Positions 27,121 to 31,066 of a stretch of 47,883 nt of DNA are shown one piece after another. The stretch is from Pseudomonadota bacterium (GTDB taxonomy: Bacteria; Desulfobacterota; Binatia; Binatales; Binataceae), in NCBI GenBank assembly GCA_021324885.1, contig JAJPIF010000027.1:1-47883 (forward strand), in the 5' to 3' direction. Below the pieces are notes generated by a model. That model worked only from the letters and a program-made list of their open reading frames with translations. It was not told the DNA's origin and ran no database searches. The stretch's first letter is position 1, and each line of letters starts with the position of its first letter. The position numbers and the translations under genes were made by a program.

Positions 27121-28299
27121 ATGTCCAGGAAGGCTTGGTCGTTACTTTTCGTAATTTTCCTGATCTGCGTGACGGCAATGACCGTGCCGGCGCAACCTCC
27201 CCCGCCGGAAGGCGTAAGCGTCCGCGAACTCGGACCAATCCAGCCCCATTGGGTATTTCTGATCAGTCCGGCTGGCGTCGACAGCGAGGAAGCCACCAAA
27301 GTCGAAGTGATCGATGGCGACTCGCTTCAGTTCCTCGGGATGCTTACCGGCGGGGTGCTCGGCACCGCCGCGGTCTCGCCCGATCACCGATTCATTTACA
27401 TGGCCGATACTTTCTACTCGCGGGGCGCGCGCGGCGTGCGCACCGACGTGGTCACCACCTACGACGCGCGGCGGCTGGCTCCCGTCCGCGAGGTCATAAT
27501 TCCGCCCAAGCGCCAGCAAACCATTCCACCCGACAGTTCAGCTCTCGCGCTAACTCCGGACGGGCGCTTGCTGCTGGTCGCAAATCTGACGCCTGCCACC
27601 TCCATGACGGTGGTCGACCTTGGCAGCAACAAGGTGCTGGGCGAAATCGAAACTCCCGGATGCACCGGTATCCTCATTTCAGGCCCTCGCCGCTTCGAGT
27701 CGTTGTGCGGCGACGGCACCATGATCTCGATCGATTTCAATGACAGCGGCAGGATGACCGCCTCGCAGCGGATGGCCAGGCCGTTCTTCGATCCGGAAAA
27801 GGATCCGGTGTTCAGCGTCCCCGCGGTGCTCGGCCACACCGCATACTTCGTCAGCTATCACGCCATGGTCTATCCGGTTGACTGGTCGGTGGAACCGCCC
27901 AAGGCGGGTACGCCGTGGTCGATGCTGACTGACGCCCAGCGGCGCGAGGGATGGCGTCCGGGCGGATATCAACCGCTGGCCGGCTATGCGCCCGGCAATC
28001 TATTCTATGTTCTGATGCATCGAGGCGGCCAATGGAGTCATAAGCAGGCCGGAATCGAAGTTTGGGTTTACAGCGCGCAGCACAGGCGGCGGGTGGACCG
28101 CATTGTGCTTCCCCGTCCGGGAACCGACCTCTACGTGACGCGCGACAGCGACCCGCGGTTGTTCGTCGTCTCGCTGCCTGAACTCAACGGGCCGCCGACA
28201 CCAACCGCGCTGCAATCCTTTTCGACCAGGACTGGCCGATATTTGGGGGTATTGGATCAATTGCCCGGATTTCCATTGTGGATGTTCGGGGCGCCATAG
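27121..28299 (+). CDS. mauB: Methylamine/aromatic amine dehydrogenase heavy chain (MauB/AauB family)
   Basis: 392 residues from the ATG at 27121, picked because GGAG lies 5 nt upstream and a signal peptide (AWSLLFVIFLICVTAMTVPAQ) follows at once; an upstream GTG at 27094 lacks this. The mature protein is a seven-bladed beta-propeller with the family's ordered strands (HWVFLISP, VSPDHRFIYMADTFYSRG, LALTPDGRLLLVANL, GCTGIL, DLYVTRDSDPRLFVVSL). Known of the family: two heavy chains hold two small TTQ subunits in the periplasm; the enzyme oxidises primary amines to aldehyde and ammonia and passes electrons to a small redox carrier. Which amine this one prefers cannot be read. The light chain follows after 22 nt. 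Confidence 0.92.
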   Translation: MSRKAWSLLFVIFLICVTAMTVPAQPPPPEGVSVRELGPIQPHWVFLISPAGVDSEEATKVEVIDGDSLQFLGMLTGGVLGTAAVSPDHRFIYMADTFYSRGARGVRTDVVTTYDARRLAPVREVIIPPKRQQTIPPDSSALALTPDGRLLLVANLTPATSMTVVDLGSNKVLGEIETPGCTGILISGPRRFESLCGDGTMISIDFNDSGRMTASQRMARPFFDPEKDPVFSVPAVLGHTAYFVSYHAMVYPVDWSVEPPKAGTPWSMLTDAQRREGWRPGGYQPLAGYAPGNLFYVLMHRGGQWSHKQAGIEVWVYSAQHRRRVDRIVLPRPGTDLYVTRDSDPRLFVVSLPELNGPPTPTALQSFSTRTGRYLGVLDQLPGFPLWMFGAP

Positions 28300-28321
28300 T
28301 GGCTCACAGCCGCTTGCTCAG

Positions 28322-28840
28322 ATGGAAGAAAGAGTAATGGATGCGCTGGTTGAACGCGTGACTCGAACCGTGGCGATGCGAACCTCGCGCCGCGGAATCC
28401 TTGGAATGCTGGGCAAACTGATTGCCGGCGCGATGGTGCTGCCATTGCTGCCGGTGGAGCGGGTTTCCGCGCGCGCCAATACTGCCGAGGCAGCGGAGGA
28501 AGGCGACCCGCTGAGCTGCGATTACTGGCGTTACTGCGGTTTTGACGGATCGCTGTGCGGATGCTGCGGCGGCAGCACCACGCAATGTCCTCCCGGAACG
28601 ATGATGTCGCCGACTTCATGGGTCGGCAGCTGCAAACATCCGATCGACGGCAAGGATTACATGATCGGCTACCGCGACTGCTGCGGAAAGGATCAATGCG
28701 GTCGCTGCTTTTGCCAGAACAACAAGGGCGACATGCCGTTGTATCGCACCCAGCTCGACAACGGCGTGACCTGGTGCTTCGGCACCGCCAGCTTCGTCGT
28801 CAACTGCACCACCGCAGTCAAACTGGGCCTGAAGAGCTGA
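28322..28840 (+). CDS. mauA: TTQ-bearing amine dehydrogenase light chain (MauA/AauA family)
   Basis: 172 residues. A long leader with a Tat-like TSRRGILGMLG at 21-31 and a hydrophobic core to about 43 precedes the mature domain, which has 14 cysteines in the family pattern (CDYWRYC, CGCCGG, DCCGKDQCGRCFC). The two cofactor tryptophans are W100 (in SWVGSC) and W151 (in TWCFG), 51 residues apart, and the catalytic Asp is D119, 19 after the first Trp. Those spacings equal Trp57/Trp108/Asp76 of Paracoccus methylamine dehydrogenase and Trp109/Trp160/Asp128 of aromatic amine dehydrogenase. An active TTQ subunit is therefore expected. An in-frame ATG at 28337 is an alternative start. Confidence 0.95.
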   Translation: MEERVMDALVERVTRTVAMRTSRRGILGMLGKLIAGAMVLPLLPVERVSARANTAEAAEEGDPLSCDYWRYCGFDGSLCGCCGGSTTQCPPGTMMSPTSWVGSCKHPIDGKDYMIGYRDCCGKDQCGRCFCQNNKGDMPLYRTQLDNGVTWCFGTASFVVNCTTAVKLGLKS

Positions 28841-28857
28841 ATCCCGCGGCTGTTCAC

Positions 28858-29379
28858 ATGGATAGCGCCCAGGTGCGCTTATCAATTCGCGCTTCAAAGC
28901 TGGGGGCCGCCATCCTGGCTGTGGTGGCGATAGTATCCCGCGCAGCGAGCGTCAATGCTTCGGGCGCCCAACTGTTCATCACTCACTGTGCCGTTTGCCA
29001 TCAGCCCAACGGACAAGGCATTCCGGGGATGTATCCGCCGTTGGCAAATTCGGCGGGAATATTTGCGCGTTCCAGCGACGGACGCGCCTATCTGGTGCAC
29101 GTGGTGTCATTCGGGCTGGCCGGTCCGATCGAGGTCGATGGCACGTCTTACAATGGTTTCATGCAATCGTGGGCAGCGCAGCTTTCCGACGAGGACATCT
29201 CGCAGGTCCTCAATTACGTGCTTGAGAATTTCAACTCGAAACTGCTGCCCGGCGGCTTCAAACCATTTACCGCTCACGAAGTGGAACGCTATCGGACTCA
29301 CGCGATGACGTCCGGCGACGTTTACCGCGAGTTGCAAACCCTAGGCGCCGCTGCGGTGAAGGCGGATCCCGCAAGGTAG
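28858..29379 (+). CDS. Exported monohaem cytochrome c in the amine dehydrogenase operon
   Basis: 173 residues. A signal peptide or membrane anchor (LGAAILAVVAIVSRAASVNA) precedes a class I cytochrome c with haem motif C44-A-V-C47-H48 and an axial Met candidate M102 in YNGFMQSW, then LSDEDISQVLNYVL. An extension follows with GGFKPFTAHEVERYR. Inferred: electron acceptor for the amine dehydrogenase or carrier to the oxidase, like the monohaem cytochrome predicted from orf-2 of the Alcaligenes faecalis aau cluster. It is 17 nt after the light-chain stop. Confidence 0.88.
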   Translation: MDSAQVRLSIRASKLGAAILAVVAIVSRAASVNASGAQLFITHCAVCHQPNGQGIPGMYPPLANSAGIFARSSDGRAYLVHVVSFGLAGPIEVDGTSYNGFMQSWAAQLSDEDISQVLNYVLENFNSKLLPGGFKPFTAHEVERYRTHAMTSGDVYRELQTLGAAAVKADPAR

Positions 29380-29383
29380 GAAG

Positions 29384-29869
29384 TTGCTTGCCGCCAAATG
29401 GCAGATTGTGTGCGCAGTTCTCATGATCGCGCTCCCCGCGCATGCCACGCCGCCCGATCAGATTTACACGCTCAACTGCTGGGGATGCCATCAGCCGCAT
29501 GCCCAGGGAATTCCTGGCAGCGTGCCGCGTTTGGCCAACTCGATGGGCTGTTTCCTCCATCTGCCCGAAGGCCGCGCCTATCTGGCCGAAGTCCCCGGCG
29601 TGGCTTCCGCACCGCTGAGCGACGATGAGATCGCGCGTGTTCTCAACTGGATGCTCCTGACCTTCAGCCGGCCCCAGATTCCCAAGGACTTCATCCCCTA
29701 CACCGCGCATGAAATCCACAACTACCGGCGGCACAAGCTGGTCAACGTAACCGCTACGCGCCGCAAACTGGCGGCCGAACTTATGGCGATGGGCTTGCAG
29801 GTATCTGACGACGGCGAATCGGCATCGGCTGGCGCACCAGGCAGCCCCCCTGCACGGCCAAAACCCTAG
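29384..29869 (+). CDS. Second exported cytochrome c-like protein lacking the Met-ligand loop
   Basis: 161 residues from TTG 29384; the next in-frame ATG (29423) would cut the signal peptide. Signal peptide QIVCAVLMIALPAHA, then haem motif C32-W-G-C35-H36. Compared with the preceding cytochrome, the loop between YLAEV and LSDDEI is about 19 residues shorter and contains no Met, so the usual sixth haem ligand is gone; Met54 (ANSMGCF) is the only Met between the haem motif and the last helix. It shares the extension FIPYTAHEIHNYR with its neighbour, showing descent from one ancestor. The C-terminal tail is Pro/Ala-rich. Electron carrier or haem enzyme; see findings. It stops 8 nt before the convergent mauD stop. 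Confidence 0.8.
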   Translation: MLAAKWQIVCAVLMIALPAHATPPDQIYTLNCWGCHQPHAQGIPGSVPRLANSMGCFLHLPEGRAYLAEVPGVASAPLSDDEIARVLNWMLLTFSRPQIPKDFIPYTAHEIHNYRRHKLVNVTATRRKLAAELMAMGLQVSDDGESASAGAPGSPPARPKP

Positions 29870-29877
29870 AGCCTTAT

Positions 29878-30480
29878 TCAGGCCCGTGGCTTGGCATCGC
29901 GCAGGTATTGCTGGATCGAAGCGACGCCGAGTTCCTGCGCCTCCAGGATACTCTCCAGATGCTCGCGCGTGTTGACCAGGCCCTTGGCGCGGATGATTCC
30001 CTGCTCGTCGATCAGCACCGCGTAGGGCAGCTTGCCGATTCGGAAAGTCATGCCCAGTTCCGCCGACAACACCATCGGGTAGTCGTCGATACGCTGCGCC
30101 CTGACGAAACGCTCCTGCTCCGCGCGGTCGCCGTCGCTGGCGAAAACCAGGTGCAGCAGCGGATGCGGTCTGGCGATCGATTTAGCCACCGGAATCAGCT
30201 TCTTGCACACCGGACAGGTGGGCGAAACAAACATCACCAGGGTGCTTTTTCCGTCGGATGATGGACGGCCCAATGAGAGCGGCCGTTGATTGATATCCAT
30301 CAAATCAAACACCGGGGAGCGGTCGCCGGCCTGCGGCCCGCGATCGATGGTCAGCGCACCCATCGGCGCAATCCGCTCGTGCAGAACGCCAATCTGGCGG
30401 ATCAACGCGAACACCACCACGCTAAGACAAAGCACTGCGATCCACAGCACGATTTGCGAGATCAGCACCGCTTCAAGCAT
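29878..30480 (-). CDS. mauD: MauD-like thiol-disulphide oxidoreductase
   Basis: 200 residues: an N-terminal membrane helix (about 5-28), a linker, and a thioredoxin-like periplasmic domain with C89-P-V-C92 in FVSPTCPVCKKLIP. The order and the cis-Pro region (IGKLPYAVLIDEQG) match MauD. MauD is needed for folding and disulphide formation of the cysteine-rich TTQ subunit in the periplasm. It overlaps mauE by 8 nt and is the second gene of a minus-strand mauE-mauD pair that converges on the dehydrogenase operon. Confidence 0.88.
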   Translation of the reverse strand: MLEAVLISQIVLWIAVLCLSVVVFALIRQIGVLHERIAPMGALTIDRGPQAGDRSPVFDLMDINQRPLSLGRPSSDGKSTLVMFVSPTCPVCKKLIPVAKSIARPHPLLHLVFASDGDRAEQERFVRAQRIDDYPMVLSAELGMTFRIGKLPYAVLIDEQGIIRAKGLVNTREHLESILEAQELGVASIQQYLRDAKPRA

Positions 30481-31066
30481 CGATCCGCTCCAGTTGCCGG
30501 ATCCATGGCGCGTTGGCGAGGATGTAGTTCATTGACAAATAAAGCATCATCAACGTGGCCGCTCCACAAACGATCGTGACGAGGTCGATGCTTGCCATGG
30601 GCCGCGATGCGATCGGAAAGGCCACGCCGATAGCGGCTGCGATCAGAATCAGATTTCGCACAATCAGCCATCCACTGAGCGTCTGCCTGAACGCCGGCCC
30701 GAAGCATCCGCAATCGATCTGACGGCGCCCGCGCGCAAGGTTGATTGCAACAGCCGCGGTGAACATCCCAACCATTACGGCCAGGATCGCGGCGGCGCGT
30801 TGTTGCACGGAGGGCACCAGCAATCCGACGGCCGCCGACGACTCAATCGCCGGGATTATCCATGCCGCCGGGCTCGACCAGGCCGCGGGCAGGATTCGGT
30901 AGTTTTCCACCGCTGCGGCGAACTCTCGCAGGTCGGCGAGCTTCATCGCCGCGGACGCCGCGAAAAGCATCGCCAGCGTAAGCGCCAGCGTCCAGCTCAG
31001 GCCAGGGTCCATCGTCGTCATATAGCGCGAGCTGCCGCGTTTCTCCATCGAAAGTTCACTCGACAT
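30473..31066 (-). CDS. mauE: MauE-like membrane protein (DoxX-like)
   Basis: 197 residues with about five hydrophobic segments and the MauE hallmark GRRQIDCGCFG, whose C119 and C121 form a redox-type pair. Known of the family: MauE works with MauD in export and folding of the amine dehydrogenase small subunit. The start could be ATG 31066 or one of three in-frame ATGs down to 31012; none has a clear ribosome site. Divergent from the amidohydrolase at 31171 across ~100 bp. Confidence 0.85.
   Translation of the reverse strand: MSSELSMEKRGSSRYMTTMDPGLSWTLALTLAMLFAASAAMKLADLREFAAAVENYRILPAAWSSPAAWIIPAIESSAAVGLLVPSVQQRAAAILAVMVGMFTAAVAINLARGRRQIDCGCFGPAFRQTLSGWLIVRNLILIAAAIGVAFPIASRPMASIDLVTIVCGAATLMMLYLSMNYILANAPWIRQLERIDA

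Follow-up and report, generated by a model that had tools for sequence, protein, structure and literature searches.

A methionine-ligand-less cytochrome c as candidate replacement of MauG in a tryptophan tryptophylquinone amine dehydrogenase locus

MauG is the textbook enzyme that finishes the tryptophan tryptophylquinone (TTQ) cofactor of amine dehydrogenases. Aromatic amine dehydrogenase (AADH) forms TTQ without a mauG gene in its cluster, and how this is achieved is an old open question. The same question is raised by contig JAJPIF010000027.1 of the Binataceae assembly GCA_021324885.1 (genome of 4.53 Mb in 30 contigs, 96% complete), which we analysed as one window, the whole contig of 47,883 bases. 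At 27121-31066 it carries six genes, coding for the heavy and light chains of a TTQ amine dehydrogenase, two monohaem cytochromes c, here called c1 and c2, and the accessory proteins MauD and MauE (Table 1). What finishes the cofactor in such a locus? Our proposal is that c2 takes the place of MauG in finishing TTQ. We give this about an even chance, because the evidence would fit a dedicated electron acceptor or subunit as well as a maturase.

A preliminary description of this DNA had pointed to a complete-looking TTQ locus with mauE and mauD on the strand opposite to the structural genes and with no visible mauG or mauF. Domain searches found all six genes in these positions, the coordinates agree with the opposite orientation, and none of the open reading frames (ORFs) in the window matched our profiles of MauF, MauG, MauJ, MauM or MauN, built from 3 to 5 sequences each. 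The PF06433 heavy chain adjoins the PF02975 light chain, the arrangement by which we recognised a TTQ amine dehydrogenase pair. W100, W151 and D119 of the light chain, already named as TTQ tryptophans and catalytic aspartate, fall into alignment columns that read W, W, D in 159 of 161 rows (two rows being references); the two deviating rows are chains truncated by a contig end. A single light chain was found in the genome. Judged from its sequence, the locus is best explained as coding for a periplasmic TTQ amine dehydrogenase of a MauG-less, c2-bearing kind.

Co-occurrence of c2 with the light chain

The feature that the preliminary description missed is the conserved cytochrome c2, which has no methionine ligand. 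We mapped 151 light-chain loci with profiles built in this analysis. c2 was present in 124 of them and a mau-type set (MauF/MauJ) in seven, and no locus had both; the remainder are eight bare extra heavy-light pairs, seven loci that break off close to the light chain and five with MauD/MauE and no c2. The MauG-less state, which had been taken as unusual, is the commoner form in the genomes sampled (124 c2-type versus seven mau-type loci). Some loci are near copies of each other (L038/L039, L176/L177), so the counts are not of independent cases; short copies of refetched loci or of the same contigs (L001-L023) were left unmapped, and a broken light-chain fragment (L106) was dropped beforehand. 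This fragment (G019:C77) contains an internal stop and is probably a decaying second copy.

c2 is the next mapped gene after the light chain in 85 of the 124 loci and follows c1 in another 36. As c1 itself was seen in just 40, it was rejected as a conserved partner. In the mapped stretch, no heavy chain is seen in 11 of the c2 loci, and MauD or MauE is missing from 14, in part due to contig ends.

The association holds at the level of genomes. In the class to which the window belongs, a strong c2 (E ≤2.5e-28) was found in 54/54 genomes with a light chain and in 1/94 others. The exception, G058, has its c2 cut by a contig end on the upstream side, so this assembly may have lost a light chain. 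Two genomes without light chain (G028, G031) gave weak matches to the c2 profile (1.2e-11 and 3.1e-8); the one in G028 (L271 5130-6333) is a Met-bearing, c1-like cytochrome next to MauE, in a genome that has no TTQ light chain. Among 385 alphaproteobacterial genomes, c2 occurred in 12/12 with a light chain above the cut-off and in 0/373 others, with at most 10 candidates per genome scored at E up to 1e-10; the 12 do not include G355, whose light-chain match is weak and contains internal stops. In G512, which is one of them, a mau-type cluster coexists with a c2-type one. In the gammaproteobacterial sample (369 genomes), 12 genomes have a light chain, nine with a c2 locus and three with a mau-type locus. 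Finally, c2 was strong in 44 of 50 further light-chain genomes, a set from which L039 and L077 were omitted. In three of the other six (G154, G168, G188) the contig ends at the light chain, and the remaining three (G175, G180, G186) have tandem MauG-family proteins, to which we return below.

The c2 profile used, A1 (51 rows), includes members of the family of the window and of two of the 12 Alphaproteobacteria. The remaining 10 Alphaproteobacteria are out of sample for it, as are the other families of the class. One over-long sequence (L072) of the 52 c2 listed was left out of A1, and L039 and L051 were left out of the 40 listed for profile A2. Across 92 clusters, c2 distances correlate with those of the heavy chain (Spearman 0.60) and of the light chain (0.53) to much the same degree as the distances of the two chains correlate with each other (0.56).

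The haem site of c2 and its proposed role

The c2 profile matches cytochrome c552 of Thermus thermophilus in two blocks and skips the piece in between (best E 2.7e-25). The predicted structure of c2 (mean predicted local distance difference test score 90.3) retrieved with Foldseek 1qyz, a malformed recombinant c552 (3.9e-5), and 1c52 (2.3e-4), and it aligns to 1dt1 with Z 12.5 over 107 residues at a root-mean-square deviation of 2.5. Cytochrome c2 has the CXXCH motif, the fold and the flanking sequences of a class I, c552-like cytochrome, whereas the hairpin of 18-19 residues that carries the distal ligand in c552 (Met69) is missing in 124 of 124 c2 rows. The spacing of R43 and N67 in these rows is 25 (119 rows) or 26 residues (five rows), compared with 43 (29 rows) or 44 (13 rows) in c1, where the ligand column reads Met in 42/42 rows. 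Outside CXXCH, the 124 c2 rows have no conserved His, Met, Lys or Cys column (best His 41%, Met 34%). Because the hairpin is missing and no such alternative column is conserved, the haem iron of c2 is predicted to be open, that is, without the usual distal ligand. Haems of this kind are typical of peroxide- or oxygen-binding proteins and unusual for pure electron carriers. c2 carries a likely export signal. It does not belong to the MauG family: it has one CXXCH, and Pfam gives cytochrome c matches and no CCP_MauG.

These properties suggest how the locus could work. The heavy and the light chain would form the enzyme, and MauD and MauE, whose roles are those given in the mau literature, would help the disulfide-rich light chain to fold. 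c1, where present, would be an ordinary electron carrier. With the distal side of its iron open, c2 could be oxidised by peroxide or oxygen; its haem would then take electrons from the hydroxylated tryptophan and its partner tryptophan on the light chain. c2 would thereby do with one haem what MauG does with two; the two proteins would share a job and little else, MauG being a dihaem protein and c2 having a single haem motif in a c552-like fold. The peroxide chemistry and the action on the light chain are inferred. In favour of this reading are the mutual exclusion of c2 and the mau set, the fact that c2 is kept whether or not c1 is present, the lack of the ligand and the assemblies free of MauG-family proteins described below. 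In T. thermophilus c552, the C14A/M69A double mutant has a five-coordinate haem (PMC10635480), and the reference list of that paper names studies turning c552 into an artificial peroxidase.

Maturation or electron transfer

The main rival, which we regard as possible but less likely, makes c2 the dedicated electron acceptor of the enzyme, or a third subunit that carries haem, and leaves TTQ maturation to something else. A small, probably exported cytochrome whose gene sits beside that of the light chain and which is inherited together with both chains is what one would expect of an acceptor, and a partner protein might supply the missing haem ligand. The family of the window includes a genome (G033) with four light chains (L096, L105, L107, L109), three of them in bare heavy-light pairs, and with a single MauE-MauD-c1-c2 set; four light chains and one c2 would fit a shared acceptor, too. 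However, a dedicated carrier without sixth ligand would be unusual, the Met-bearing c1 already fits the carrier role where it is present, and c2 is found in none of the seven mau-type loci although acceptors could be exchanged freely. Moreover, the AADH of Alcaligenes faecalis is reported to hand its electrons to azurin.

TTQ might also be matured by a MauG-family protein encoded elsewhere. No mauG is hidden among the ORFs of the contig, but the genome has one CCP_MauG-family (PF03150) protein of 439 residues, unlinked, on contig C16 (L002 814-2133). The genome-wide search proposed in the preliminary description thus came out empty for the contig and gave one family member outside it. This protein has two CXXCH motifs, a PF03150 domain and a Tyr at the column of MauG Tyr294; however, among solved structures it matches cytochrome c peroxidases best (4e-50), with MauG at 3.6e-30 at best. 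Across the class, PF03150 tracks the light chain (51/54 light-chain genomes versus 50/94 others, p about 4e-8), but within the family of the window no association is seen: strong matches (E <1e-30) occur in 9/16 light-chain genomes and 11/25 others. No PF03150 match at all was found in 3/54 light-chain genomes of the class and in 19/50 of the further light-chain genomes, some of these assemblies being incomplete. Nineteen of 50 are many for a required MauG-family enzyme. Strong c2 is present in 18 of the 19, and in the last one (G188, L067) the contig stops 21 bases after the light-chain frame. We consider maturation by the C16 protein unlikely.

Still less likely, in our opinion, is that the TTQ of MauG-less enzymes is self-processed with the help of MauD and MauE only, c2 being incidental. 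The first tryptophan hydroxylation in methylamine dehydrogenase (MADH) is thought to be autocatalytic, as stated in a passage of PMC7876137, but self-processing would leave the near-perfect retention of c2 unexplained.

Several observations speak against c2 as the maturase, in addition to the class-level distribution of PF03150 and the two haem motifs and Tyr of the C16 protein. An acceptor or subunit would co-occur with the light chain just as a maturase would, and we know of no precedent for a single haem doing the job of the dihaem MauG. The iron could have another ligand, as Tyr7 and Tyr45 of c2 are conserved to 84% and 76%, and in 23 of the 124 rows a Met occurs somewhere between R43 and N67, without a common position. 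The near-copy c2 loci L038 and L039 also hold MauM/MauN-like genes, and another c2 locus (L246) has a weak MauG-like match (76 bits) on the other strand. Furthermore, G175, G180 and G186 are without canonical c2 and have two adjacent MauG-family proteins behind a divergent c2-like cytochrome (L265 4364-7088, L266 3339-7611 and L267 5805-9030). At the column of Tyr294, the dihaem proteins of these pairs have His and Phe instead of Tyr. The idea that such pairs simply replace c2 is weakened because each of them follows a c2-like cytochrome, short and divergent, that lacks the Met hairpin. Three of the five MauD/MauE loci without c2 belong to tandem MauG-family genomes: L054 (Polaromonas), L065 (Aquabacterium) and L059 (a proteobacterial metagenome-assembled genome). 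For the other two, L032 and L070, contig ends limit what can be seen; L070 comes from a genome (G191) that has a strong c2 on another contig.

Three mau-type clusters with MauF and MauJ (among L182, L213, L215 and L269) have an ORF containing seven CXXCH motifs in their vicinity, and the contig that holds L215 and L269 showed no MauG-like ORF.

Lineage of the enzyme and gene order

Table 1 Genes of the TTQ amine dehydrogenase locus in the window.
Gene product	Position	Strand	Remarks
Heavy chain, TTQ amine dehydrogenase	27121..28299	+	ATG 27121, alternative GTG 27094; PF06433 1.4e-41
Light chain precursor, 172 amino acids	28322..28840	+	PF02975 4.1e-45; W100, W151 (TTQ), D119 (catalytic)
c1, class I monohaem cytochrome c with Met-ligand loop	28858..29379	+	PF00034 1.2e-12
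c2, cytochrome c552-like, CXXCH, without Met-ligand hairpin; proposed MauG replacement	29384..29869	+	
MauD, thioredoxin-like accessory protein	29878..30480	-	TIGR02661 6.7e-70, 234.4 bits (cut-off 188.6)
MauE, membrane accessory protein	30473..31066	-	PF07291 3.9e-30

The window shares both chains, the TTQ residues, MauD and MauE with the mau cluster of MADH (Paracoccus denitrificans, L078) but not mauF, mauJ, mauG, mauM and mauN. Comparison with solved structures gives a mixed picture. The closest solved relatives of the heavy chain are AADH heavy chains (1.6e-50; best MADH 9.5e-37), that of A. faecalis being the nearest, whereas the top match of the light chain is a leader-containing MADH chain (1.2e-48), followed by AADH chains (1.6e-40) and other MADH chains (1.5e-37). 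Of the aligned light-chain residues, 53% are identical in A. faecalis AADH and 44% in P. denitrificans MADH. Both chains stay below the NCBIfam equivalog cut-offs for MADH (heavy chain 146 of 454.45 bits, light chain 176.7 of 196.85 bits).

Both trees were quick, unrooted and made without bootstrap. In the heavy-chain tree (109 rows out of 149 heavy chains plus one reference, near copies removed; 355 columns) the seven mau rows lie on one side of a branch with support 100 that excludes the window. The family of the window forms a group of 13 rows (99), which falls together with the mau clade and a few alphaproteobacterial c2-type rows into a set of 25 (98); the A. faecalis AADH is in a separate set of 13 (99). 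The light-chain tree has few columns (111) and 84 of the 161 rows, after removal of near copies and rows shorter than 85 residues. Here, the four mau rows retained and the MADH reference form one clade (100), and a starred split (97) parts the window from A. faecalis AADH. Because the two trees agree on the separation, the enzyme of the window is placed by its sequence in a lineage of its own outside the mau and AADH types, rather nearer the mau side. A label as AADH-like, which the best match of the heavy chain would favour, was dropped since both trees part the window from A. faecalis AADH (splits 97 and 99). c2-type rows surround the mau clade; this would fit a single replacement of c2 by the MauG set, the root of the trees not being known.

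The window also resembles the aau cluster in being MauG-less with a cytochrome gene after the light chain, and differs from it by the turned MauD/MauE and the two cytochromes. The aau cluster, published in 2001, is said to lack mauF, mauG and mauJ and to have orf-2, coding for a small monohaem cytochrome, after the light-chain gene. We predict that A. faecalis orf-2 is c2. Active AADH was reportedly obtained in 2005 from aauBEDA plus orf-2 in P. denitrificans, although this host has a mauG itself. In passages of the Binatota genome paper (PMC8262859) such genes are named mauABC and amicyanin is supposed to be the acceptor.

The layout had been put forward as a possible third architecture for TTQ enzymes, to be looked for in related genomes. 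MauD and MauE lie opposite to the light chain in only four of the 151 loci: the window, L024 from the same genus, and L094 and L095 from the same family. L024 has the gene order of the window, with MauD/MauE turned round behind the cytochromes, and in L094 and L095 the order is related, with the heavy chain turned as well. Since a second congener (G026, L025) carries the MauD/MauE pair on a different contig, the order is labile within the genus; the turned pair is a local, labile rearrangement and not a type of its own, and the layout was rejected as the defining novelty. What stands of the suggestion that the locus fits neither described type is its place in the trees, outside the mau clade and apart from A. 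faecalis AADH. A different arrangement is seen in gammaproteobacterial metagenome-assembled genomes (L026, L027, L030, L031), which have tandem arrays of heavy-light-heavy-MauE-MauD-light-c2.

Significance

In the literature searched, with subscription papers mostly outside, we found no description of c2 and no cytochrome proposed for MauG-less TTQ maturation. The survey shows many MauG-less assemblies without any MauG-family protein and points at one small, easily expressed protein. The closeness with which c2 tracks the MauG-free form makes it a good candidate for the maturation factor being sought. Should c2 turn out to be the acceptor instead, this would still define a cytochrome that lacks a distal Met ligand and goes with one particular enzyme. 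If c2 is the maturase, it would be a natural equivalent of the engineered, c552-derived peroxidases, and one that modifies a protein. It is then tempting to speculate, at somewhat less than an even chance, that TTQ enzymes in nature mostly owe their maturation to a Met-less cytochrome with one haem, which arose from a c552-type carrier when the hairpin holding the distal ligand was lost, and that the MauG system is one later lineage.

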